The notes below the pieces were generated by a model. That model was not told the DNA's origin. It did no database searches and saw only the letters and a list, made by a program, of their open reading frames with translations. From positions 1-64,000 of the forward strand of contig CANRBC010000003.1 in the NCBI GenBank assembly GCA_947628755.1: a stretch of 64,000 bases of DNA. Direction: 5' to 3'. The translations under genes and the position numbers were made by a program. Source of the stretch: an uncultured Clostridia bacterium (lineage in GTDB: Bacteria; Bacillota; Clostridia; Lachnospirales; CAG-274). Shown here in pieces: positions 31,017-64,000 of this stretch (the stretch's first letter is position 1; each line of letters starts with the position of its first letter).

Positions 31017-32345
31017 TTATGCGCTGAAAATCGCGGTCTTAGTATTGGCGTCCCAGTCTACCTTAACTCCGAGAGCAGTACCTAATGCTCTGAATGGTAT
31101 ATACATTCTGCCGTCTTTTATTTCAGCCTTTACGCCGTTATCCATTGTTACAGGCTTACCGTCTATTATCATAGCATTGCTGCCTGCGGTAAATGAAACA
31201 GTCTTGCCCTTTGCCTTTACGGTAGCTGTCTTTGTAGCTGCGTCCCAGCCTATTATTGAGCTTGTATCTGCATTGTCAACACTTTCTCCGCTTATGGCAA
31301 TAGCTGCAAAACGCAGAGGAATAAGTGTAGAGCTTGATTCCGTCTGTATGTATGGCGCAGCGTCTACGGTAAACTTGTCACTTCCAACGGAGATAATATT
31401 GCTTCCTATGGAAACTCTTACCTCTTTAGATATAACATTATCCTCTTTTGTGGTCTTTGTTTCGGTTTCAGTGGTTTTTTCGTCCTTATTTAAAATATCT
31501 TTTATTAAGGACTTGTCGGATTTAGCCACCGTTGTTGTTTCTGTTGTTGCCTCGGTAGTTGTAACGGTAGTCTTATGTCTTATTGTACCGCCACCACCAC
31601 CGCCACCGCCGGAGGAGGTAGTTTTTCTTGTGGTAGTTTCTGATGATGTTTCAATAACAGCAGCTGTCGTACCCTCGCTTTGAGATTCTGTTGTAACAAC
31701 AGGCGCTTGTGTTGTCGCTTGTGTTACGGGAGCTTTTGTTGTCATTTGTGTTGTGGGAGCTTTCGTCGTCGCCTGTGTAGTAGGCGCTTTTGTAGTTGCC
31801 TGCGTTGTAGGCTGTGTTGTTGTTTCCGTAGTTGTAGTGGTGTTAGTGGTTGTGGTAACTGTTGTCTGCGCAGGGTCTTTTGTTCCTGTAACACTACCGT
31901 TTACCATATCTGCAGGAACGTCATTTTCATCAAAATTGAGCAAGGATATAAGTCTTGGCTCAACTGTATAAGTGCCTTCCTTAAGTATTTTGAATTTAAG
32001 CGTATATATGTTTTCATTATTTGAATATACAGTAGCCGCACCCCATGTAAATTTGACCATATCATCTGCGGGATCTCTGTCAACAACAAAGGCTGACATA
32101 GATAATAAAGTATTTATTTCATAGCCTGTGTATTCCAAAGCAGTTTGATCATAGTGATTTTCTATTTCTATAAAGGATACGCCGGAATTGTTGCTTATAT
32201 CCACCTTTATTTCAACCGTTTCACCTACCTTACCGCTTACATTCGATGCAGTAAATGTGACCTTATTATCCGCCGCAAATACAGATATACTGCATATCAG
32301 CACTAATGATAATATTAATGCCGTTGTTTTTTTCAATAAATTCAT
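31017..32345 (-). CDS. Secreted cohesin-domain protein with Thr-rich linker and copper-amine-oxidase-like domain
   Basis: This 442-residue extracellular protein may be a minimal scaffoldin or cell-surface anchor. A signal peptide (1-24) is followed by a cohesin-like beta-sandwich (about 27-155) showing VSGKVGETVEIKVDISN, YDQTALEYTGYE, VKFTWG, LKFKI and the closing VNGSVTG. A long low-complexity linker (about 158-305) contains repeated TTQATTKAP units and an 8-Gly run. The C-terminal module (about 309-442) has two copper-amine-oxidase N-domain-like repeats (LIPLRFAAIA..., YIPFRALGTALG), which in Clostridia usually bind the cell wall. It follows the dockerin gene by 37 nt. No catalytic module is present. 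Confidence 0.8.
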   Translation of the reverse strand: MNLLKKTTALILSLVLICSISVFAADNKVTFTASNVSGKVGETVEIKVDISNNSGVSFIEIENHYDQTALEYTGYEINTLLSMSAFVVDRDPADDMVKFTWGAATVYSNNENIYTLKFKILKEGTYTVEPRLISLLNFDENDVPADMVNGSVTGTKDPAQTTVTTTTNTTTTTETTTQPTTQATTKAPTTQATTKAPTTQMTTKAPVTQATTQAPVVTTESQSEGTTAAVIETSSETTTRKTTSSGGGGGGGGTIRHKTTVTTTEATTETTTVAKSDKSLIKDILNKDEKTTETETKTTKEDNVISKEVRVSIGSNIISVGSDKFTVDAAPYIQTESSSTLIPLRFAAIAISGESVDNADTSSIIGWDAATKTATVKAKGKTVSFTAGSNAMIIDGKPVTMDNGVKAEIKDGRMYIPFRALGTALGVKVDWDANTKTAIFSA

Positions 32346-32382
32346 AATATTTTCCTCCTTTTTAGTTATTTATATATAAAAT

Positions 32383-34185
32383 TTATTGTAAAACCACATC
32401 ATAGCCTGCTATATATTTCAATAACCTCAAGCTGTCCTTTGAGTCTACGATACCGTCGCCATTTACATCAGCTGCTATGCTGTCAATTTCAACATTATGA
32501 CCTGCTATATGTTTAAGAAGCCTTAAACTGTCCTTTGAGTCGATAACTCCGTCGTTGTTTACATCACCCTTTTGATATACGGGTATGTCATAGGATACCT
32601 TCCAGCCGTGTTCTTTAGCCCATGTGTCGGCGTAGGAGTCTTTTTCTACATAGAATATAAGATTATTTTCGTCACAACCAGCAAATGCTGAGCTGCCAAA
32701 TTCTCCAACTTCTATTGATGTCACACTAGCCGGTATTACTATTCCTGTAAGAGCTTTACAATATTCAAAAGCGCAATTTTTAATAGATGTTACAGTGTCT
32801 GAAATTGTTACATTTTTAAGAAAAGTACAGTTTTCAAATGCAGCAACTTCAATAGATAAAACACCTCTTGGCACATTATAATTTTTTAAACCACCTGGGG
32901 CAGCTATCAGTTTCGTTTTGTTTTTATTGAATAAAACTCCTTGTTCTGAGGAATAAGCTGTATTATTAGCATCAACATTTATACTCTTTAAATTACTACA
33001 GGTGCCAAAGCTTTGACAAAGTACATTTATTGCATTAGAAGGAATTGTAATACTTTCGATATATATATTTCCATTAAAAGCAGCATAATCTATTGTTTTC
33101 ACGGAAAAAGGCACACTATAGCTTTGAATGTTTTTTCCGGGTGGAAAAGCTATAAGCTCCGTTTTGTTTTTATTAAATAGAACACCATCTTCATCGGCAT
33201 AATACATATTATTTTTATCTACTTTGATTTCTTTCAAATTGCCTGTTAATTCCGTTACATATTGCCCTTCACTATAATCATAATAAGTGTACTGCCAATC
33301 AAAGCTGAATTCATCTATCGAATTAACATATTGTGGAATAGTTATGCTATTCAATGCTGACCCTGAAAAAGCAAAGCTTTCTATTTTTTCAAGGCTATCG
33401 GGGAATACAATATTATATAGAGATGAGCATCCCTCAAACGATCTACCTCCTATTTCCTTAAGTCCGTCGGGTAAAACTACATTTGAAAGGCTTGAACAAC
33501 CTTCAAACGTACTATTTAAATGAGTTATACCCCTTGGAACTACTATACTTTTTAAATTAGTACAACCTGAAAAAGTAACCCATAAATCGTCTGTCATTTC
33601 CTTTGGCATATCTATACTCTTAAGGTTTGTACAGTTTAAAAAACATCCCCAACCCATGTATGTAACGCTGTCAGGTATTGAAATCGATTCAAGGCTTAAA
33701 CACTCTGCAAAACAAAATTCATCCAATATGGTAACACTGTTTGGCAGTACCACTTTTCTTAGATGTAAACAACTTCTAAAAGCTGATTTACCTATGTATC
33801 TTACTTTTTCTCCATATATATACATGGGAATATCAACATTCATTACCAGCTTATCGGCAGATACAACTGTACCGGAGTTCATATCAAAATAAATATCACC
33901 TCCGCCTACGGCATATGTAACAACATAAGATGCATTTAAATCGACAACATCGTTATCCGAAATACCTGTTAGATCGTCAATGGTTGCTTTTGTTTCTACA
34001 TCCGAAACAGCTTCTTCCTTATTTATATTCTCCTCCATTTCTAATGCAGAATCGGAAATGACTGTATCTGTTAGAGTTATCTCCGCTGAGATTTTTTCCG
34101 ACATTACGCCGGCATAGCTTACGCTTAGACTCGACATCATCATAGCAAACGCCACTATTGATGCCACAGTTCTTTTTAATTTCAT
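32383..34185 (-). CDS. Secreted BspA-type leucine-rich-repeat protein with type I dockerin
   Basis: A 600-residue extracellular protein. The signal peptide (about 1-25) is followed by LRR_5/BspA repeats (about 95-530) recognisable as IGKSAFRSCLHLRKVVLP, SITIPSNAINVL and similar FxxCxxLxxIxIPxSVxxI units; such repeats bind host or bacterial surface proteins. The last 60 residues form a dockerin with two calcium loops, GDVNNDGVIDSKDSLRLLKH and ADVNGDGIVDSKDSLRLLKY. The dockerin would bind a cohesin; one is encoded by the next gene. A TAAGGAGG site precedes ATG 34185. Confidence 0.9.
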   Translation of the reverse strand: MKLKRTVASIVAFAMMMSSLSVSYAGVMSEKISAEITLTDTVISDSALEMEENINKEEAVSDVETKATIDDLTGISDNDVVDLNASYVVTYAVGGGDIYFDMNSGTVVSADKLVMNVDIPMYIYGEKVRYIGKSAFRSCLHLRKVVLPNSVTILDEFCFAECLSLESISIPDSVTYMGWGCFLNCTNLKSIDMPKEMTDDLWVTFSGCTNLKSIVVPRGITHLNSTFEGCSSLSNVVLPDGLKEIGGRSFEGCSSLYNIVFPDSLEKIESFAFSGSALNSITIPQYVNSIDEFSFDWQYTYYDYSEGQYVTELTGNLKEIKVDKNNMYYADEDGVLFNKNKTELIAFPPGKNIQSYSVPFSVKTIDYAAFNGNIYIESITIPSNAINVLCQSFGTCSNLKSINVDANNTAYSSEQGVLFNKNKTKLIAAPGGLKNYNVPRGVLSIEVAAFENCTFLKNVTISDTVTSIKNCAFEYCKALTGIVIPASVTSIEVGEFGSSAFAGCDENNLIFYVEKDSYADTWAKEHGWKVSYDIPVYQKGDVNNDGVIDSKDSLRLLKHIAGHNVEIDSIAADVNGDGIVDSKDSLRLLKYIAGYDVVLQ

Positions 34186-34211: not shown

Positions 34212-34835
34212 TTAAATTGCAACAGCAATTTTATTGTTTTCTATTGCTAAAATTCCTTTTTTGTCTATTATGTATATAATTTGAAGTAATGACTCTAATT
34301 TAACAATGATTCTTGCAGTCATTTTTTTATTTTCATCATTCTCTTTAATATTTTTATCCTCAAAAATAATCATTTTCTCACCTGATGAATTAATTTTTAA
34401 TATATAATTTCCATGGGCTAAACAGTTTCTTATATGCTTTAAAAAACATAAAAAACATTCCAAATATCCATTTTTAGGAATTTTATTATAGGATTTTAAA
34501 ACACCACGTTCTCCTTCATAATTTTTTGATTTTGAATAGGTAAGCCCTAAGACGCCAAAATAATCAGATGCGTTTTTATTCACATCATCTATAAAAATAA
34601 AGTATTTTTTGTCTTTTAAATTAATTACCTTTTGTAATTCAGATTTTAATCCTTTTTGATTAAATAAATTATTATCCCAGCCGTAATCTTTAAAATTTTT
34701 GCTCTTATTGCATTGATTATTTCTCATTGCATATGTAACAAAAAATGAATACAAAATATAGTACTCTTCGATAGTCAACATATAATCATCTTCTATGTCT
34801 TTAATTATTGAGTTTTTTCTCGTTTCATCTCCCAT
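34212..34835 (-). CDS. Uncharacterised protein with a HEPN-like RNxxxH motif
   Basis: This is a 207-residue cytoplasmic protein of unknown function. Near residue 140 it carries KHIRNCLAHGNYIL. The RNxxxH signature inside a helical context is the hallmark of HEPN domains, many of which are RNases in toxin or defence systems. The rest is Lys/Asn/Ile-rich and predicted helical. ATG 34835 (GAAGGA 9 nt upstream) is preferred over the far upstream ATG 34958, whose extra 41 residues would be encoded by a palindrome array. No partner antitoxin is adjacent; the next upstream gene is a serine recombinase. The base composition is more AT-rich than the surrounding genes, suggesting transfer. Confidence 0.55.
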   Translation of the reverse strand: MGDETRKNSIIKDIEDDYMLTIEEYYILYSFFVTYAMRNNQCNKSKNFKDYGWDNNLFNQKGLKSELQKVINLKDKKYFIFIDDVNKNASDYFGVLGLTYSKSKNYEGERGVLKSYNKIPKNGYLECFLCFLKHIRNCLAHGNYILKINSSGEKMIIFEDKNIKENDENKKMTARIIVKLESLLQIIYIIDKKGILAIENNKIAVAI

Positions 34836-34884
34836 AAATTCAATTCCTTCTTTTATATTGTATATATTGCCTCTTTTGAGAAAA

Positions 34885-35070
34885 TCCGAAAAGGTACACT
34901 TTTCCGATTCGGGAAATTTTCGGAAAAATGTGCAAAAAATGTGTGAAAATACTTGCATATTTAGTGGATTTATGGTAAAATGTGTATAAATTTAGGTAGG
35001 GATAAAAAAATCGGAAAAGTGTACTTTTCCGATTTTTTTACGTTTTCGGAAAGGGACTTTTCCGATTTTT
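34885..35070. repeat. Array of TCGGAAAAGT/ACTTTTCCGA palindromes
   Basis: Three related palindromes are spaced within 185 bp. The first, imperfect, is at 34885-34907. The second is a perfect 16-bp stem (35005-35020 with 35023-35038, 2-nt loop, flanked by A and T runs). The third, TCGGAAAG/CTTTTCCGA, is at 35046-35065. Half copies TTTTCGGAAA (about 34917) and CTTTTCCGATTTTT (about 35190) bracket the array. A plus-strand promoter-like pair TTGCAT / TAAAAT with 17-nt spacing lies inside (34953-34981). Confidence 0.75.
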
Positions 35071-35202: not shown

Positions 35203-35808
35203 TTATTTTTGGCGGACAGCAGTTTCATAGCGTTTGGATTTATCGAAAAATGTAGAAGCAGGCAAATCACATTCCTTGGCAGCGGCTTTTAATGAAAGCT
35301 CCTTGTTTCGCCATCTCTTGTGAACGTCGTAGAAATTTTCCGGCGTAGGCGATTCCGGTCTGCCGAATTTTACGCCCTTTGCAAGAGCTGCAGCTATGCC
35401 CTCCGCCTGCCTTTGCTTTATATTGTCCCTTTCGTTTTCAGCCACAAAGCTAAGCACTTGCAGCACAATATCGCTTAAGAACGTTCCCATAAGGTCCTTT
35501 CCCCGTCTTGTGTCCAGTATAGGCATATCTATTACCATAATATCCGCCCTTTTTTCTTTAGTGATATATCTCCATTGCTCTATTATTTCCTCGTAATTCC
35601 TGCCCAGTCTGTCTATGCTCTTTATTATAAGTAAATCGTCTTCCTTTATCTTTTTTATCAGCCTTAAATACTGCTCTCTTTTGAAATCCTTTCCGCTTTG
35701 TTTGTCCATATAAATATTTCTAAAGGGTACTTTGTACTCCTGCATAGCTATAAGCTGCCTGTCCTCATTTTGTTCTTTTGTTGAAACTCTTATATAGCCG
35801 TATATCAT
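35203..35808 (-). CDS. Serine recombinase, resolvase/invertase family
   Basis: This is a 201-residue small serine recombinase of the Tn3 resolvase/Pin type. The catalytic domain (about 1-135) begins MIYGYIRVSTKEQNEDRQL, which contains the nucleophilic Ser. DRLGRNYEEIIEQW and FVAENERDNIKQRQAEGI follow. The C-terminal helix-turn-helix (about 150-195) reads LSLKAAAKECDLPASTFF. ATG 35808 is preferred over GTG 35817. It could resolve a transposon or invert DNA; no partner transposase or invertible segment was recognised, but a palindrome array and a HEPN-like gene follow it. Confidence 0.9.
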   Translation of the reverse strand: MIYGYIRVSTKEQNEDRQLIAMQEYKVPFRNIYMDKQSGKDFKREQYLRLIKKIKEDDLLIIKSIDRLGRNYEEIIEQWRYITKEKRADIMVIDMPILDTRRGKDLMGTFLSDIVLQVLSFVAENERDNIKQRQAEGIAAALAKGVKFGRPESPTPENFYDVHKRWRNKELSLKAAAKECDLPASTFFDKSKRYETAVRQK

Positions 35809-35955
35809 AATTATCACCCCATTACATATATAACATATTTAGTGTGACAATGTATGACAAAATATAAGCCTGTAAATTTATGCACAATAATAAGGCTGTT
35901 GAGATGAATTTGGGTTTAAAGAATAATGCCTGTCTCTCCATCCACCCAAATAAAA

Positions 35956-55089: not shown

Positions 55090-57840
55090 TTAAAGTTCTA
55101 TATCTCTATCTTTCGTTTTTGACTGCTGTGTGGCTTCCTCAACAAGTTTTGTTTCAGCCTTTGCTACAATGGATTTAAAACTGTTTGTTTCCCGCTCCGG
55201 TTCATTACTTTTGAATTCGCTACCCATTAATATGGACAACACATTATCTTTATTACCTTTGGAACAAATAGTCATAACATTAAGCTGGTCGGGAGCTACA
55301 ATACACTCATTTAAATTAACTCCGTCAAAGGTTGACATTAAAAAATCATTTGTTTCAAAAATGCAATTATTAAATGTACAATTTTTTAATTGTGCTTCAT
55401 AAAATGTACATCCATGGAATGCAACATTAATAAAAGTAACATTATCCAAATTCGCATTTGATAAATTAGTTGAATCAAACAAATTACCATCGAAAACACA
55501 ATCTTTAATATGTGCATTTTCTAAATTCTTAAGGACAACTGAATCTTTAAATTTGCAATTTGTAATTTTAGCACCTTCCAAATAAAATAATAAGCGAGGA
55601 AGTGTAATAGCTGACTGTTCTTTAAGCATATCATCAAATATTACATCATTTATTGCACGATTTTTTAAATTGATAATAGCTTTTTCATCCTCTTGAATGG
55701 GTATTAATAAGTCGTTATATATTTCTTGAGTAATGACTTTGTTTGTGACAACTTGTCGTAAAGTTTCATCATTAGGTTCTGTCGGCAGATTATTAATTAT
55801 GCCATCAAAATTATTGTCATTTTGCTCAATACTGTCTTCAACAGATTTTAAGCTATCAAGATGTTTTTTCCAATCTGTTATTTCAACACCAAAAATGCCG
55901 CTAAATGATTCTATTTCCGACCTTGTATTCACCATTCCTTCCGTGTTATCCTCGTATAAACGATATATAGGACACAAATCCTTATCAAATAATTCAAGAG
56001 CTTTATCTTTTTTAAGCGGAATAAGATGATTATCTGTGTATCCATATTCGTCCCGATCTTTAATAGTTATCGTATTATCCGGCAAATTATTAAGAATATA
56101 CGCAAATTCTATATCATTTGTTACATCTTTAAATCCTAAGTCATCTACATAATAAAATGTTTCTTTATTGTCTTCTTTTTCAATGGCAATAATGTCCGAT
56201 ACAGATAAGCTATGTCCCTTAAAATCTTCAGGTCGATATAAGTTAAATTTATCGTACAATTTTTCAAGAACATCTACTATATCACTATTGCCGGCTTCAA
56301 TACTGTCAGAATATACTTCCTTATAATTTTTTAGGTTAACATTTTTTCCTACTTTTTTTACAAAATTATATGAAGCAAACCTAAGATTGCGATCATCTGA
56401 ATCTAATTGATAAATTTTGTAGTTAATTACGGTTGAAGTATGTATATTATTAATTATACTTTCAGCAGAATCTACCAGATTATCGAATGTCATTACCCTT
56501 AAATCATTATTCATTGTTTCCAAAGTATCATAAGTCCTTTGATGTATTAACTTGTCAGCCGAATACACATTGATATTGAAATTAAGAAGGTCAGCGCTTA
56601 TCTGTATAGGCAATACATTATTATTTGAAGTTTCAATTTCTGTAAAGGCTAAATCTACCTTTCTTAAGTCACTAAAATCCACTGCTCCCAGATGTTCAAC
56701 AGCAGCATATTTTGTAATATAATCTTTTGCCGTTTCTAACATTACATTATTTATTTTATCCATTTCGTTAATTATTTCTTTGAGCATGGTCTTTGACTGT
56801 TTAGTAATTAACTCCATTGATTGCATTAATTCCTTCACATTTTTATCTTGGCTCCAAGATGCTATATATTCAAATGACGCAGCAGAAGTATCTAATCCTA
56901 ACGACTTTCCTACAACGTAAGCTATACTTTCCGCTTGAATTTCTTTAGTTGATTTATCAGAGCCGTCCTTATGTAGAAAGGCATGAGCCTCTTCATGTAT
57001 CAAAACATCAAGCATCTGTAATTGAGAAATACCTGAATTAATAAATATTTCATTATCTTTAATGCTATAATATCCTACTGAATCATTCGCTAAATCAGCA
57101 CTGTAATTTATTGGACACGGAGATATGGCTTCGATTGCTTTTCTTAAAACATCAAAATTCTCAACATCTGCCGTTAAATTATTACCTAATTTAGGCAATT
57201 CAGCTCCATTTGTCTGCGAAACATCAAATACAGGTACAGTCGTAAAACCAACAATTGTTTTCTTAACTCTACCGGTTTCCTCTTGTATAGGAAGACCATT
57301 TTCACCGAGTATTATTTCCCCTGTGACAGGATCTTTTTTGTTAATTAGCACTTTTTCACTTTTTAAGAGTGGGGCATAAATCATTATTGCCTTTTCTCCT
57401 TTATTTATATACCGATTGTATTTGTTTTTCCAATCAGCAGCTGACGTTATAATTGTTGATTCAGGTCGCTGCATAAGTATCAGCAACACATTTCTGGGCG
57501 AATAATTATTAAATGTTGTCATTAAATCCAAATATTGCATATATTTTTCGCTTGTGAAAAATTCTTTACAACCTTTTTCGAGCAACTCTGTTGCTTGCTT
57601 AATTTTTTCCTGCTGTCTGTTCTGCTTAGAAAACGCCTTCCCGCCGTCAGAAATAAAGTTAAATAATTTCAGTATGTGATGTTCGGGAATATTAAAATCA
57701 TCATAAAAGGTCTTAATGTATTCCGATGCCATATCTAAACGATATTTCATACTTTTTATTTCGGGATTCTTTGCAACGCCATCTAAAAAATTATTAATTA
57801 CAATGTCATTCTCAGGTGTTATTTGTTTATTTTGCATCAT
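55090..57840 (-). CDS. Multidomain ArdC / zincin / YodL / pentapeptide-repeat protein
   Basis: This is a 916-residue polyvalent protein of the LtrC/ArdC type. In order: helical N-terminus; ArdC-N ssDNA-binding-like domain (about 90-210; NYSPRNVLLILMQRPESTII, GEKAIMIYAPLL, VFDVSQTNG); zincin metallopeptidase with DVLIHEEAHAFLH (residues 278-290) and the third ligand region IQAESIAYVVG; YodL-like domain (about 470-570); a DUF4316-like stretch (about 590-665); and pentapeptide repeats (about 755-850; ANLDNVTFINVAFHGCTFYE, AQLKNCTFNNCIFE). The end carries the shared tail NSFKSIVAKAETKLVEEATQ with KDRDIEL. Such proteins are thought to be sent into the recipient to protect incoming DNA. AAGGAGG overlaps a hairpin just upstream. 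Confidence 0.82.
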   Translation of the reverse strand: MMQNKQITPENDIVINNFLDGVAKNPEIKSMKYRLDMASEYIKTFYDDFNIPEHHILKLFNFISDGGKAFSKQNRQQEKIKQATELLEKGCKEFFTSEKYMQYLDLMTTFNNYSPRNVLLILMQRPESTIITSAADWKNKYNRYINKGEKAIMIYAPLLKSEKVLINKKDPVTGEIILGENGLPIQEETGRVKKTIVGFTTVPVFDVSQTNGAELPKLGNNLTADVENFDVLRKAIEAISPCPINYSADLANDSVGYYSIKDNEIFINSGISQLQMLDVLIHEEAHAFLHKDGSDKSTKEIQAESIAYVVGKSLGLDTSAASFEYIASWSQDKNVKELMQSMELITKQSKTMLKEIINEMDKINNVMLETAKDYITKYAAVEHLGAVDFSDLRKVDLAFTEIETSNNNVLPIQISADLLNFNINVYSADKLIHQRTYDTLETMNNDLRVMTFDNLVDSAESIINNIHTSTVINYKIYQLDSDDRNLRFASYNFVKKVGKNVNLKNYKEVYSDSIEAGNSDIVDVLEKLYDKFNLYRPEDFKGHSLSVSDIIAIEKEDNKETFYYVDDLGFKDVTNDIEFAYILNNLPDNTITIKDRDEYGYTDNHLIPLKKDKALELFDKDLCPIYRLYEDNTEGMVNTRSEIESFSGIFGVEITDWKKHLDSLKSVEDSIEQNDNNFDGIINNLPTEPNDETLRQVVTNKVITQEIYNDLLIPIQEDEKAIINLKNRAINDVIFDDMLKEQSAITLPRLLFYLEGAKITNCKFKDSVVLKNLENAHIKDCVFDGNLFDSTNLSNANLDNVTFINVAFHGCTFYEAQLKNCTFNNCIFETNDFLMSTFDGVNLNECIVAPDQLNVMTICSKGNKDNVLSILMGSEFKSNEPERETNSFKSIVAKAETKLVEEATQQSKTKDRDIEL

Positions 57841-57853
57841 AAAACCTCCTTAA

Positions 57854-57881
57854 AACAGGGTAGCAAAATGGCTACCCTGTT
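57854..57881 (-). terminator. Hairpin between the helicase and pentapeptide-repeat genes
   Basis: A perfect 11-bp stem, AACAGGGTAGC / GCTACCCTGTT with loop AAAATG; on the minus strand it is followed by TTTTAAGGAGG. It lies directly after one stop and before the next ribosome-binding site, so it acts as attenuator or spacer inside the operon. Confidence 0.65.
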
Positions 57882-57883
57882 AA

Positions 57884-60800
57884 TTATTCTATTTCATCTT
57901 GTTTTTTTGTTGTTTGATTTGATATGTTTTCCGATGAAGCAGATTGAGAAATTAACTTTTCCTCGGCATTTGCTACAAGATTCTTTAGGCTATTCGGCTC
58001 TTGTTCAATTTCAGCCTTGTCTTTAATATTTTCACCTATAATTTTATTGTCATTTTTTTCTTTTGCGGGAGTGTTAATTAAATCCTCTACTTCCAATAAT
58101 CTCTTTTGCGCAGCTTTTAATTCATCTTCATGCGCAAATGGTTTTTGGATTTCCAATGCTATTGTCTTAAGCTGCTGTTCATAAGATTTTACAGATGTGT
58201 TTATTTTTTCAAGCTGCTGTTGTAAAGACTTTAATAAATTAGATAACTTAATAGCATTGCCCTGAGCAGAATCACTTAATTCAAGAGAATATTGTTTATG
58301 CCCTGTTAAAATAAGATATTTACTATGAGATACAATCTCATACGATACGCTAAGTGCAAATCCACAATATTCACCAATTTTTTCATCAATGAGAGCAGTA
58401 TCTGACTTACTAAATACGTTAAGAATTGCTGTTTGTGCATCTAAAGATTTTGTATATAATTTACCCTTGACAGACATTGTAAAATTATTTTCGGAAAAAT
58501 TATTATTAAATAAATCTATATCTTTAGCTACAGCTTCCGCCATTGATTTATATTTTGTAATTTTATTAGGTAAATCAATATAAAGAGCATTTTCAAAGCT
58601 ATACATCTGCTTATTATACATAGATTTTTGCATAGACAAACGACTTATCTTAATATCTAAATCCATCTTTTCTTTAATTAATGGATTACCCGTTGCGAGT
58701 GCTTTAACTTCTGCATAGCTGAGTGTTGTTTCATCTATATCCTCTGCAACTCTTATAGGGCTTTTTGAAGTCATAATCTGACTAATAAATTTTTGTTTAT
58801 TTTCTATGAGCTGCCAACTGTAGCTGTCAAAAGTGCCTTCCGTCACATATCGAAATATATGTACCTTTTTGTGCATATTTCCTTGTCTTAGTATACGCCC
58901 CTCCTGTTGCTCAATGTCTGACGGTCGCCACGGTACATCAAGATGATGCAAGCCAATTAACCTGTCTTGGACATTTGTTCCTGCACCCATCTTAGATGTG
59001 GAGCCAAGAAGAAAACGTACATTTCCTGAGCGCACTTTTGCAAAAAGTTCCTTTTTCTGAGTTTCAGTATTCGCATCGTGAATAAAAGCTATTTCATTTT
59101 CTGGGACACCCTTTGAAATTAATTTTTCTTTTACTGCATTATATATGCTAAACTCTCCTGATTTCTTAGGGGTAGAAATATCGCAGAAAATAAGCTGAGT
59201 AGATTTAGTATTATCATATTTTTTATAAAGAGAATAAGCGTTTTCAACGCATCTGTCTACTTTACTATTTGGAGAAGCAGCAAAAGTAGGGTCATACAAT
59301 CTTTGATCAAGAGCGATTTTTCTGCCGTCACTCGTTATTTTAAGCATATTATCTTCTGAACTATCAATACCACCGCTCCTCACCTTTTCAGCCCTTTCTG
59401 CCAGAGATGCTATGAGTTCTTTTTGTAACGCAGTTGGTGCTATAACCTCATTGTGGTATTCTGCCTCCGGTACGGGTAAATTAAGTGTATCTTTAGGTTT
59501 AATATCTGCGCATTCTTTAAACATGGACATTAACTCAGGCAAGTTATAAAATTTGGAAAACCTTGTTTTTGTTTGATAACCGGAGCCTTCAGGTTTTAAC
59601 TCAACAGAATTGATTGTTTCTCCAAAAGTGGATGCCCACGCATCAAAATGAATTAATCCTCTCTCCTGCAGAGAATTATATTGCAAATATTTCATATTGG
59701 TATACATTTCCGTCATACTATTACTAATCGGCGTACCGGTTGCAAAAACTATGCCCTTTCCCCCTGTGATTTCATCAATATACCTGCATTTCTGAAACAT
59801 ATCTGTGGACTTTTTCGCATCAGTCGAAGAAATTCCCGCAACATTCGTCATTTTTGTGTAAAGGAATAAATTCTTATAATTATGACTCTCGTCCACATAC
59901 AATCGGTCTACACCCAATTCTTCAAATGTAACAACATCGTCTTTTTTACTGTCAAGCAAATTTTGTAATTTATTAAGCAATCCCTTCTTGGAACGTTCAA
60001 GATTTTTTACAGACGGTGTTTTGCCCTCTGCTGCACTAAGTAATGATATAGCATCTGTAATATCATCAATTTCTTTTTGTAAATACATCTGCTGACGCTC
60101 CATAGAAATGGGTATCTTTTCAAACTGACTATGTCCTATAATTACAGCATCCCAATTACCTGTTGCGATTTTAGAACAAAACTTCTTTCTGTTCAAAGGT
60201 TCAAAATCTTTTTTTGTAGAAACTAAAATGTTTGCAGCAGGATATAAATGCATAAATTCAGAAGCCCATTGTTCTGTCAAATGATTTGGCACAACAAACA
60301 GCGGTTTTTCACACAACCCAAGTCTTTTGCTTTCCATGGCAGAAGCCGCCATTTCATAAGTTTTTCCTGCGCCAACTGCGTGAGCAAGTAAAGTATTATC
60401 ACCAAAAAGTGTATGCGCAACTGCGTTAAGCTGGTGTGGCTGTAAACTAATTTCAGGATTCATTCCTTCAAAATTCAAAAAAGACCCATCATATTCACGC
60501 GGTCTAATACAATTAAATTTTTCATTATATAAAGTGCAAAGATTTTCACGTCTTTCTATGTCGCTGAATATCCAGTCCTTAAATGTATCTTTTAATTCCT
60601 GTTGCTTTAAACTTGCTTCTTTTGTGGCTTCTTTATTCGTAATATATTTTCCACTATCATCCTTATCACGTATAACAACAGACTTTAAATTAAGAGATTG
60701 CTCAAGAATTTCAAGTGCATTCATTCGATTAGTACCATATTTTTTATTAATCAGCACATTGTCATAAATAAGCCACGCTTTATTTTTTTCTGTAATATTC

Positions 60801-63800
60801 CATTCTGCTGTTTGAGGAGTAAAAATCACTTTATGGTCATTATTAGCTTGTAAAACTTCCGTCATAAACTGACGTATATATTCTGGTGGTATCCACGTTG
60901 CTCCAAGCCTTACATCAATTTCATCTGCTGTTAAATCAACAGGCTGCACTTTTTTAAGAGCATCTACATTAGCCTGATATTTAATATCAAGTTCTGCAAA
61001 TTTTTCAGCTATAGCAAGTTTATGTCTTACATTTCCTGATAAATACTCATCATTGGTTTCCCATTTTTCAGTTTCAGGATTTAAAAAAATAATATCTTTA
61101 CTGCGTTCTATTATGTCATCTACAGTTGTATTATCACATAATGCAGCCATATAATTTAAGTCTACTCTACCATAAACAGCCATACTGACGGATAATGCCT
61201 CAACAGGAGTATCTACTCTGTCAATCGGTCTATAACTATTTATAGTTCGTTTTGTAAACATATCGGCTTTACCGATATATTGCCCTTCTGAGTCAAAGTT
61301 TTCAAGCGAACAAAGCAATGGATAACTACTGTCTTCAAACATCGCCAAACGGTTGCCCCTTGAATTAAGGTACCCGTATTTTTCAACATAGGCATCATAA
61401 ATTTTATTAAGTCTTTTTTGCCTATCTTTAACAATATCATCAGAAACATTTCTTAATTGCAAATCTATTAACTCTCTGGTTAAATCTCTGATTTCTATCA
61501 TTCCTTTAATACGCTCAGTTTTAGCGGCAGAAAAGTCGGTTTTCTGCATAATGGAATTATTGCGGTAATATATATCTTCATTTACAATAGTATAACTATA
61601 ATTGCGTATATTCGGGTCTGCTGCAATGGTTTGTGTATCAAGTTCTTCATCAACTGAAAGTTCAATTTCAGAAATGCTTCCTCTAATATTATGTATAGCA
61701 GAAATTAATTTTTCCTCAAAAGATGATGTATCATCTAAAATACATTCTGCCGTCTGACCAAATTGTCCGCTCACTTCTCGCATTTCACCAATAATCATAT
61801 CGGAATTATTAATAAAGTATTTATTAATTTTGATACCATTATTATTTGTACCCAACGATACCCAATCAGGCATATCTTCTATTGTAAAATCACGCTGTAC
61901 CTCTCTTTTTTGAAAAAATAAAATATCACTTGTAACTTCCGTGCCCGCATTAGCTTTAAAAGCTAAAGTCGGTAATCTTATAGCCCCTAATAAATCAGCT
62001 CTTGCAGCATAATACTCTCTTGCATTTGAATTGGCTTTATCCATAGTGCCTTTAGACGTAATAACAGCTACTATTCCACCTGCTCTGACCTTATCTATTG
62101 ATTTTGCAATAAAATAATCGTGTATCTTAAATTTGTGTTTATTATAGTCTTTATCATAAACAGCATAATCTCCAAATGGCACATTACCTATGACAACATC
62201 AAATGTATTGTCGCTAAATCCCGTCTTTTCAAAGCCAGTGATTTGAATATTTGCTGACGGATATAGCTTCCGTGCTAATCTTCCGGAAATATCATCAAGC
62301 TCTACGCCATAAATTTTACTATTGCGCATTTCCGGTGGCATAACGCCAAAAAAATTACCGATACCCATTGACGGTTCTAATATATTTCCTGATTTAAAGC
62401 CTAAATTATTAAGAGCTGTATATATAGCTTTAATAATAGTAGGCGAAGTATAGTGTGCATTATTAACCGACGCTCTTGCGCTTGAATATTCCTCAGGAGT
62501 AAGCAAATCATTAAGTTCATTAAATTCATTTGACCAGGAAGCATTATTTTTATCAAAAACTTGTGAAAGACCACCCCAGCCTACATATCTTGATAATATT
62601 TCTTGCTCTTTGTTGGTAGGAATCTTATCGTCTGCTTCAAGTTTCTTTAATAAACTAATAGCTGCAATATTTGCCTTATATTTTGCTTTTGCACCGCCTA
62701 TACCTAAATCGTTATCTGTAATAACGAATCCTTCTGTAGTATTAATGACATTATCAATAACGCCATCAATGGCAGAAACATCAAATGGTTTATCATCAAA
62801 ATAATATTCTTTTGTCGCAACGTAGCCTGACTGGGTCAAAAATTCGGTTACACGAGCAAATTCTTTGTAATCGTCGGTGGTAAAAATACCTTTATTTAGA
62901 GCCTCTTCCTGTGTAAGCACACTTCCTTCACTTCTGATGTAACCAAAAACCTTTTCATTATCGGAAACATAGAGTAAAGAATTGTCCGAATTGTCATAAT
63001 TTCCTTTATTATCATAATTTTTCTCATTGCCAACATATACTTTGTCGTTTACAATAAAGCATATTACACCGTCATAACGGCTATAAGAAGCAGCTTGCAC
63101 TTGCACATCATTTTGATGGTTCCGTTGTTTCTCTAAATAAGCATTATACTCTGCTATTTTAACGGCAGCAGCTTCTGTAATAATTTCAGTAATTTCACGT
63201 TCCTCTATAGATAAAATAGACTTATCTACAATATGAAATTCATTATTGTGAGAATACAATCTAAGACTTGTTCCATTGATTGCACCATTTGTTTCAAGTA
63301 CAATTCTATAATCTTTTTTTGCATAGTGTAAATCAAGATTTTCTGATAATCTATCAATAAGAGCATCGTTTCTTGTAATAGGAATAGTTGCATATATTTC
63401 GCCATCATTTAAAGATAATGCAAAACTGATATTTTCCATTTCAAATTTATCTCTTGAAAGCATTTCGTCCGAACTCAGAGCTGCAATATCAACAGTCTTT
63501 CCGTCAGACATAAGACTAACTTCAGGAAAATCTGTTGCTTCAACAGATAAAACGGTTTCCGTAGCCTGTTGTGTGATTTCAGAAGAAATTGTTTTAGGGT
63601 ACTTGACTTCTGCCATAGTATATGGTATACTATCATTGAAGCAGATAAATGTTTCCTCTTGGGGCAATTGTAGCCCTAAAGACTGAAGCATTTTGTCTGC
63701 TTTTTCTATGTTTACAGCAATTAAATTTTCTAATAAAAGCTGATTTTCTAAATAGTTTACCATATTGTTTCTTCCGTAAACACTTGTTATACGATTAACA

Positions 63801-64000
63801 TATTGTCTTGCAAAAGCAGTTTCTATATCTAGTGCAATCATTATTTCTCTGTTTTTCTTGTCTTTAAGTTCTGTAATTGCAATCACAGAGCCTTCGTGTC
63901 CACCTTTAAGAATCATAACAGGATTTCTTAACTGGGACGGTATCTGAGACATAATATCAATGTCAAGTCCGTGACCGTGATAACGTTCGGTTGGTTCTGC
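57884..64000 (-). CDS. Giant DNA methylase / SNF2-type helicase fusion, 5' end outside window
   Basis: The open frame continues past the window edge with no stop, so at least 2038 residues are encoded; residues below count from the Met at 63952. An N-terminal polyvalent-protein-like domain (about 1-100) is followed by an N6-adenine methylase domain with motif I LEPSMGIGNFFG (525) and motif IV NVPF (590, in place of NPPF/NPPY). Then comes an SF2/SNF2 helicase with Walker A AHAVGAGKT (1190), VDESH (1353), FATGTPISNS (1403) and QQEGRILRQGN (1682). A coiled coil (about 1905-1960) and the shared tail NSLKNLVANAEEKLISQ (1987) end it. It probably modifies and remodels element DNA during transfer. 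Confidence 0.88.
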   Translation of the reverse strand, partial: AEPTERYHGHGLDIDIMSQIPSQLRNPVMILKGGHEGSVIAITELKDKKNREIMIALDIETAFARQYVNRITSVYGRNNMVNYLENQLLLENLIAVNIEKADKMLQSLGLQLPQEETFICFNDSIPYTMAEVKYPKTISSEITQQATETVLSVEATDFPEVSLMSDGKTVDIAALSSDEMLSRDKFEMENISFALSLNDGEIYATIPITRNDALIDRLSENLDLHYAKKDYRIVLETNGAINGTSLRLYSHNNEFHIVDKSILSIEEREITEIITEAAAVKIAEYNAYLEKQRNHQNDVQVQAASYSRYDGVICFIVNDKVYVGNEKNYDNKGNYDNSDNSLLYVSDNEKVFGYIRSEGSVLTQEEALNKGIFTTDDYKEFARVTEFLTQSGYVATKEYYFDDKPFDVSAIDGVIDNVINTTEGFVITDNDLGIGGAKAKYKANIAAISLLKKLEADDKIPTNKEQEILSRYVGWGGLSQVFDKNNASWSNEFNELNDLLTPEEYSSARASVNNAHYTSPTIIKAIYTALNNLGFKSGNILEPSMGIGNFFGVMPPEMRNSKIYGVELDDISGRLARKLYPSANIQITGFEKTGFSDNTFDVVIGNVPFGDYAVYDKDYNKHKFKIHDYFIAKSIDKVRAGGIVAVITSKGTMDKANSNAREYYAARADLLGAIRLPTLAFKANAGTEVTSDILFFQKREVQRDFTIEDMPDWVSLGTNNNGIKINKYFINNSDMIIGEMREVSGQFGQTAECILDDTSSFEEKLISAIHNIRGSISEIELSVDEELDTQTIAADPNIRNYSYTIVNEDIYYRNNSIMQKTDFSAAKTERIKGMIEIRDLTRELIDLQLRNVSDDIVKDRQKRLNKIYDAYVEKYGYLNSRGNRLAMFEDSSYPLLCSLENFDSEGQYIGKADMFTKRTINSYRPIDRVDTPVEALSVSMAVYGRVDLNYMAALCDNTTVDDIIERSKDIIFLNPETEKWETNDEYLSGNVRHKLAIAEKFAELDIKYQANVDALKKVQPVDLTADEIDVRLGATWIPPEYIRQFMTEVLQANNDHKVIFTPQTAEWNITEKNKAWLIYDNVLINKKYGTNRMNALEILEQSLNLKSVVIRDKDDSGKYITNKEATKEASLKQQELKDTFKDWIFSDIERRENLCTLYNEKFNCIRPREYDGSFLNFEGMNPEISLQPHQLNAVAHTLFGDNTLLAHAVGAGKTYEMAASAMESKRLGLCEKPLFVVPNHLTEQWASEFMHLYPAANILVSTKKDFEPLNRKKFCSKIATGNWDAVIIGHSQFEKIPISMERQQMYLQKEIDDITDAISLLSAAEGKTPSVKNLERSKKGLLNKLQNLLDSKKDDVVTFEELGVDRLYVDESHNYKNLFLYTKMTNVAGISSTDAKKSTDMFQKCRYIDEITGGKGIVFATGTPISNSMTEMYTNMKYLQYNSLQERGLIHFDAWASTFGETINSVELKPEGSGYQTKTRFSKFYNLPELMSMFKECADIKPKDTLNLPVPEAEYHNEVIAPTALQKELIASLAERAEKVRSGGIDSSEDNMLKITSDGRKIALDQRLYDPTFAASPNSKVDRCVENAYSLYKKYDNTKSTQLIFCDISTPKKSGEFSIYNAVKEKLISKGVPENEIAFIHDANTETQKKELFAKVRSGNVRFLLGSTSKMGAGTNVQDRLIGLHHLDVPWRPSDIEQQEGRILRQGNMHKKVHIFRYVTEGTFDSYSWQLIENKQKFISQIMTSKSPIRVAEDIDETTLSYAEVKALATGNPLIKEKMDLDIKISRLSMQKSMYNKQMYSFENALYIDLPNKITKYKSMAEAVAKDIDLFNNNFSENNFTMSVKGKLYTKSLDAQTAILNVFSKSDTALIDEKIGEYCGFALSVSYEIVSHSKYLILTGHKQYSLELSDSAQGNAIKLSNLLKSLQQQLEKINTSVKSYEQQLKTIALEIQKPFAHEDELKAAQKRLLEVEDLINTPAKEKNDNKIIGENIKDKAEIEQEPNSLKNLVANAEEKLISQSASSENISNQTTKKQDEIE

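Follow-up and report, generated by a model that had tools for sequence, protein, structure and literature searches.

The coupling of cohesins to dockerins is mainly known as the glue of enzyme complexes, and non-cellulosomal cohesin and dockerin modules occur in Clostridium perfringens on NagJ and other glycoside hydrolases. A single type I cohesin joined to a PF07833 CAO-like wall-anchoring domain has been described in OlpC of C. thermocellum and in ScaG of A. cellulolyticus and C. clariflavum (PMC3413522; PMC4582956; PMC11557425). Binding to secondary cell wall polymers has been reported for the CAO-like PF07833 domain of OlpC (PMC4582956), and proteins of the OlpC/ScaG type are classed as non-SLH anchoring scaffoldins (PMC11557425). 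Leucine-rich repeat (LRR) modules are also found on dockerin proteins, with 28 counted in Ruminococcus flavefaciens FD-1 (PMC2930009). The invertons of gut bacteria, for example the Mpi-controlled loci of Bacteroides, combine inverted repeats around a promoter with a nearby invertase and a downstream surface gene (PMC11892184). PF07833 non-SLH anchors, LRR-dockerin proteins and invertible promoters at gut surface genes are thus all known already (PMC2930009; PMC11892184).

Here we describe a locus in which these elements occur side by side. It lies in a window of 64,000 nucleotides, the whole stretch of DNA analyzed, from a 2.5 Mb genome (51 contigs, 98% complete) of an uncultured Clostridia family. 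The close named relatives of this genome are mostly gut assemblies with isolate names starting "Lapin" (rabbit), with others from the rumen and other animals. On the minus strand, an LRR-dockerin gene (32383-34185) is followed, after a gap of 37 nt (32346-32382), by a cohesin-stalk gene (31017-32345), and both open reading frames begin like a signal peptide and have a ribosome site of the AGGAGG type. The initial annotation had described two adjacent secreted genes 37 nt apart, and this arrangement holds. We consider it likely that the locus as a whole represents a two-component, wall-anchored LRR display system with an invertible promoter.

The upstream gene encodes a secreted BspA-type LRR protein of 600 aa with a C-terminal dockerin. 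Pfam detects LRR_5 repeats (5e-65) and, at residues 539-592, Dockerin_1 (PF00404, 9.7e-13), in agreement with the BspA-repeat protein with a terminal type I dockerin that had been proposed. The structural model (mean pLDDT 82) finds its best fold matches in the gut LRR surface proteins 4gt6 and 4fs7, and LRR_5 repeats together with an LRR fold characterize a BspA-type LRR surface protein. The dockerin itself (32410..32571, minus strand; PF00404, 52.5 bits) has the tandem F-hand repeats and D-x-N-x-D Ca2+ ligands of type I. Both of its Ca2+ loops are intact (DVNNDGVIDSKD and DVNGDGIVDSKD), its two repeats are near-identical (SKDSLRLLKHIAG and SKDSLRLLKYIAG), and the Ca2+-ligand Asp positions are invariant across 11 partner dockerins.

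The downstream gene encodes a secreted cohesin-stalk anchor protein of 442 aa, identified by its open reading frame, Pfam and a structural model. Its N-terminal cohesin (31887..32258, minus strand) scores 51.5 bits against PF00963 in the genome search (cut-off 24.1) and 1.7e-13 when the N-terminus is scanned alone; a Pfam scan of the whole 442-aa protein misses this domain, which reflects the scan rather than absence, and the N-terminus was scanned separately. AlphaFold2, run with 16 relatives, predicts the cohesin confidently, and the best Foldseek matches of residues 25-159 are solved type I cohesins. Comparison by VIA gave Z scores of 17.7 to 6kgd (rmsd 1.9, 130 aligned residues) and 17.2 to 1aoh, whereas type II cohesins score lower (Z ~12). 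The single cohesin-like domain of the initial annotation is thus confirmed in the predicted structure as a type I cohesin. It is followed by a linker, first Thr-rich and then Gly-rich, that is predicted to be disordered (31431..31874, minus strand; pLDDT <50 for most of residues 159-305). The C-terminal stalk (31020..31430, minus strand), previously described as a cell-wall-binding-like module, matches PF07833 (Cu_amine_oxidN1, 5.6e-23) and is a probable cell wall anchor on the basis of this match and its conservation in relatives. A PDB sequence search with the stalk returned no relative; the stalk was not taken up as a new fold, as the fold search spanned the cohesin only. Mean column identity is 71% for the stalks of 11 relatives vs. 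29% for the cohesins. A cohesin and PF07833 in one secreted protein is the combination that defines a non-SLH anchoring scaffoldin. By analogy with OlpC, the C-terminal stalk would attach the protein to the cell wall, and the Thr-rich linker would hold the cohesin outward.

The pair is not confined to this genome. Across the 48-genome family and the named relatives, in which contigs were searched with a stalk alignment, the order LRR-dockerin followed by cohesin-Thr-stalk is repeated in many genomes amid differing flanking genes. In a non-redundant set of genes whose C-terminal stalk is complete and whose upstream neighbor can be read, a dockerin gene lies directly upstream of 16/17 cohesin-stalk genes vs. 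1/64 cohesin-less stalk genes (Fisher p 8.5e-15), and on this contingency test a chance neighborhood of the two genes was rejected. The gap between them is 7-37 nt in 15 of these 16 cases. The sole cohesin-stalk gene without an adjacent dockerin (L080) has a dockerin gene ~3.5 kb downstream. LRR_5 is present in the immediate partner in 16 of 17 pairs; the exceptional partner (L100) has Bsp-like repeats, with a second LRR-dockerin gene just upstream. At some loci (L060, L068, L069, L102, and L105) an additional cohesin is present on the LRR-dockerin partner, so that chains could form.

The two proteins also appear to have changed together. Cohesin and dockerin distances correlate over 17 pairs (Mantel r 0.425, p 2e-4) and over the 13 non-redundant pairs (r 0.384, p 0.0012), whereas cohesin and stalk distances show no such correlation (r -0.13, p 0.86) even though the two domains share a polypeptide. 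Such a pattern is better explained by matched couplings than by linkage alone. Co-divergence of linked genes does not require that their products bind; the stalk control speaks against this simpler account, although the pairs are few and a conserved stalk carries less signal. Additionally, at least seven proteins free of cohesin and dockerin, six from relatives and one of 1995 aa from the same genome as the window, are covalent fusions of LRR_5 and PF07833, and one cohesin-like protein has three terminal SLH domains in place of the stalk. These covalent proteins, together with the exchange of SLH for stalk, suggest that cohesin-dockerin coupling substitutes for direct fusion of an LRR head to a wall anchor. 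It could still be argued that the neighbors are not binding partners, that each binds something else and that their linkage is incidental to a shared promoter, since expression from one operon across a 37-nt gap is enough to keep two genes together. However, the excess of linked genes (16/17 vs. 1/64), the specificity of the co-divergence and the covalent fusions joining the same two ends make this highly improbable. We favor direct binding, in which the secreted LRR protein would dock its C-terminal type I dockerin onto the cohesin in a Ca2+-dependent manner, as the fold, the Ca2+ loops, the linkage and the co-divergence all indicate. Judged from these sequences, the purpose of the pair is very probably to hold the repeat protein at the cell surface.

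Whether that surface is separate from polysaccharide breakdown is less clear. Extending the initial annotation from the locus to further modules, a genome search found six single cohesins, each in its own place and its own open frame, and 16 dockerin matches. Two marks of a cellulosome are missing: there is no multi-cohesin primary scaffoldin among the six cohesins of this 98% complete genome, and no glycoside hydrolase among the dockerin proteins found genome-wide, which are otherwise lyases and a pectinesterase-like protein only. Dockerins elsewhere in the genome occur on CBM77 pectate lyases, the pectinesterase-like protein and PelZ-like lyases, and two similar PelZ-like lyases combine dockerin and LRR_5 in one chain (L018:1974-5477 and L024:3517-7008). 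The initial claim that no glycoside hydrolase is involved is therefore right for the locus and for dockerin-bearing genes throughout the genome, but it passes over the dockerin-bearing pectate lyases, PelZ-like lyases and pectinesterase-like protein elsewhere. Likewise, its reading of adhesion rather than polysaccharide breakdown agrees with a partner that is an LRR protein and not an enzyme, but sits less well with dockerin-bearing pectinases in the same genome, and the pair is not clearly separate from polysaccharide breakdown. With such pectinases and LRR_5 lyases present, plant polymers are an equally possible ligand of the LRR. The LRR surface would be the working end of the system, most likely as an adhesin for host or plant material.

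The same enzymes raise the possibility that the anchor serves as a general docking post in a small complex that degrades pectin, in which the LRR-dockerin protein is one of several ligands and binds plant fiber while pectate lyases share the cohesin. Anchors of the OlpC/ScaG type are indeed bound by dockerin-bearing enzymes in C. clariflavum and C. thermocellum (PMC4582956; 4dh2 complex), and the pectate lyases, LRR_5 PelZ-like lyases and pectinesterase-like protein of this genome would supply the ligands. The window dockerin is 41% identical to the best-scoring other dockerin of its own genome, that of a pectate lyase, and cross-binding with it is therefore possible. However, identity to the dockerin of the sister-species pair is 64%, a difference that favors private pairing without proving it. 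The immediate partner is moreover an LRR protein in 16/17 cassettes, Pfam matched enzyme families in the immediate partners of none of the 17, and cohesin and dockerin co-diverge pair by pair. We regard a shared docking post as unlikely, albeit worth keeping in view, and prefer a dedicated pair.

Other cohesin and dockerin loci of the genome were noted in passing. One cluster (L016:3359-12138, contig C11) encodes a dockerin-bearing CBM77 pectate lyase, a second CBM77 pectate lyase that has a cohesin within its chain and matches dockerin weakly, and a small dockerin protein; it is possibly a mini pectin-degrading complex. In two paralogous loci in mobile-element-like surroundings (L015:7865-17518 on G000 contig C3, beyond the window, and L019:3690-9957 on contig C6), the gene for a giant protein carrying SLH domains, dockerins and Big_3 repeats is immediately preceded by that for a small secreted cohesin protein, which makes a cohesin-dockerin pair of opposite polarity. 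A gene for a 186-aa tyrosine-type integrase lies directly upstream of a dockerin-bearing beta-helix protein (L023:4617-7099, contig C2), resembling the pair loci L068 and L070. Within the window itself, positions 55090-63952 hold genes of integrative-element type, among them those for a YodL/ArdC-like protein with pentapeptide repeats and a 2022-aa MuF-C/methylase/helicase protein.

Besides the family-wide conservation of the pair, the initial annotation overlooked a recombinase and candidate invertible-promoter module upstream. The recombinase is a serine recombinase of 204 aa and a candidate DNA invertase (35203..35817, minus strand; Resolvase 9.8e-27), for which the closest NCBIfam model is the master DNA invertase Mpi (7.3e-16, below the model cut-off). 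Between it and an ORF of 207 aa lie two inverted recombination-like sites, one gene-proximal (34881..34909) and one distal (35009..35037), the latter a perfect palindrome around a 2-nt center. They enclose ~100 nt that include an extended -10 promoter-like sequence, TTGCAT-17-TAAAAT with TGG before the -10 (34953..34981, plus strand), which faces away from the operon (OFF). The -35 of this promoter is weak, for which reason it is absent from the consensus promoter scan; it was assigned by homology to conserved promoters elsewhere. The locus thus has the inverted repeats flanking a promoter and the nearby invertase candidate of an inverton. The 207-aa ORF (34212..34835, minus strand), with a weak HEPN match, separates the switch from the LRR-dockerin gene, and in the sister species G001 and G003 its place is taken by unrelated ORFs. 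In G003 the recombinase-proximal region and the sites are ~97% identical to those of the window; homology ends at the gene-proximal site and the genes beyond differ.

Similar modules recur across the family. Within 1050 nt upstream, inverted sites with a near-consensus promoter were found at 6/14 pair LRR-dockerin genes and 3/11 LRR-stalk genes vs. 7/465 controls (p 4.5e-9), some of the seven control ORFs being neighbors of the same switches. At two pair loci, tyrosine-type integrase genes replace the serine recombinases. Elsewhere, two loci have a similar SLH-type surface gene downstream: one (L017 ~8593, G000 C11) has two sites and a promoter segment, while the other (L224 ~5332, G003 C14) has one site only, and its switch appears to have been lost or not yet gained.

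Evidence that such switches invert comes from a giant surface gene that is 84% identical between the source genome (G000) and G003. Its homologous upstream spacer is inverted end to end, with an alignment score of 80 reversed vs. 21 forward for G000-G003 and 98 vs. 17 for G001-G003, while G000 and G001 share the same orientation (95 vs. 24); shuffled maxima are <=40. The promoter segment is accordingly opposite in G003 (L222, C36) relative to G000 (L196, C5) and G001 (L223, C15), and the recombinase adjoining the G003 switch is 78% identical to that of the window. In the source genome, the switch copies on contigs C5 and C6 have the promoter directed toward the gene. At the pair locus of G001, contig C5 on the side of the LRR-dockerin gene and contig C4 on that of the recombinase stop exactly at the inner ends of the sites and the spacer is missing, which we infer is expected of a mixed population. 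The window's own locus was found in the OFF orientation only, in G000 and G003.

Several imperfect palindromes beside a small serine recombinase would also be compatible with a Tn3-like res site, and the upstream palindromes might accordingly be resolvase res sites, terminators or operators of an operon that is not phase variable. The promoter is OFF in all pair loci scored and the window recombinase matches the Mpi model weakly, as such a reading would allow. Against it stand the inversion, at an orthologous surface gene, of a homologous spacer flanked by similar sites and beside a 78%-identical recombinase, the promoters directed toward the gene on C5 and C6, and the G001 contig breaks exactly at both sites. 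We therefore think a static operon improbable. As switches of this family point one way in the source genome and the other way in a sister species, at a surface gene 84% identical between them, the pair is probably phase variable and OFF in the assembly. By homology with these switches, the adjacent serine recombinase would invert the ~100-bp promoter ahead of the operon and make display phase variable.

A broader generalization, to which we would give an even chance, is that the family carries phase-variable "split adhesins," in each of which the wall anchor stays nearly constant, the cohesin-dockerin coupling diverges fast and the LRR head varies. These would interconvert over evolution with one-piece LRR-stalk adhesins, use dedicated serine or tyrosine invertases as on/off switches, and be naturally orthogonal pair by pair, with two pairs coexisting in G003. 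Overall, the cohesin and dockerin here resemble a plug and socket dedicated to a surface LRR protein, kept as a gene pair across the family, and fiber-binding machinery may have been reused for adhesion. The ~17 natural pairs are a ready panel for the study of specificity and orthogonality, and the pair could help in the search for the gut ligands of BspA-type LRR proteins.

In the open-access papers searched, we found no dedicated and recurrent pair of LRR-dockerin and cohesin-stalk genes that co-diverge and follow a probable invertible promoter, and the inverton study mentions neither dockerins nor leucine-rich repeats (PMC11892184). Like the Mpi invertons of Bacteroides, the window switch has inverted repeats, a promoter, a nearby invertase candidate and a downstream surface gene, but it is clostridial and would control a cohesin-dockerin surface pair. 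The LRR-dockerin protein resembles those of R. flavefaciens FD-1 in being secreted and in combining LRR with dockerin; however, the latter are part of a 222-dockerin cellulosome, whereas that of the window appears to be the dedicated partner of an anchor encoded next to it. Pairing of cohesin and dockerin outside cellulosomes is shared with C. perfringens, and the C. perfringens cohesins 2jh2 and 2vo8 are structural matches of the window cohesin, but the C. perfringens modules link secreted enzymes together while the window pair would link an LRR protein to the wall. Finally, the anchor shares with OlpC and ScaG a single type I cohesin and PF07833. It differs from them in its reversed order, with the cohesin first and the stalk last, in its long Thr linker, in the lack of a cellulosome, and in its fixed upstream LRR-dockerin partner gene, through which it would carry an LRR protein instead of an enzyme.
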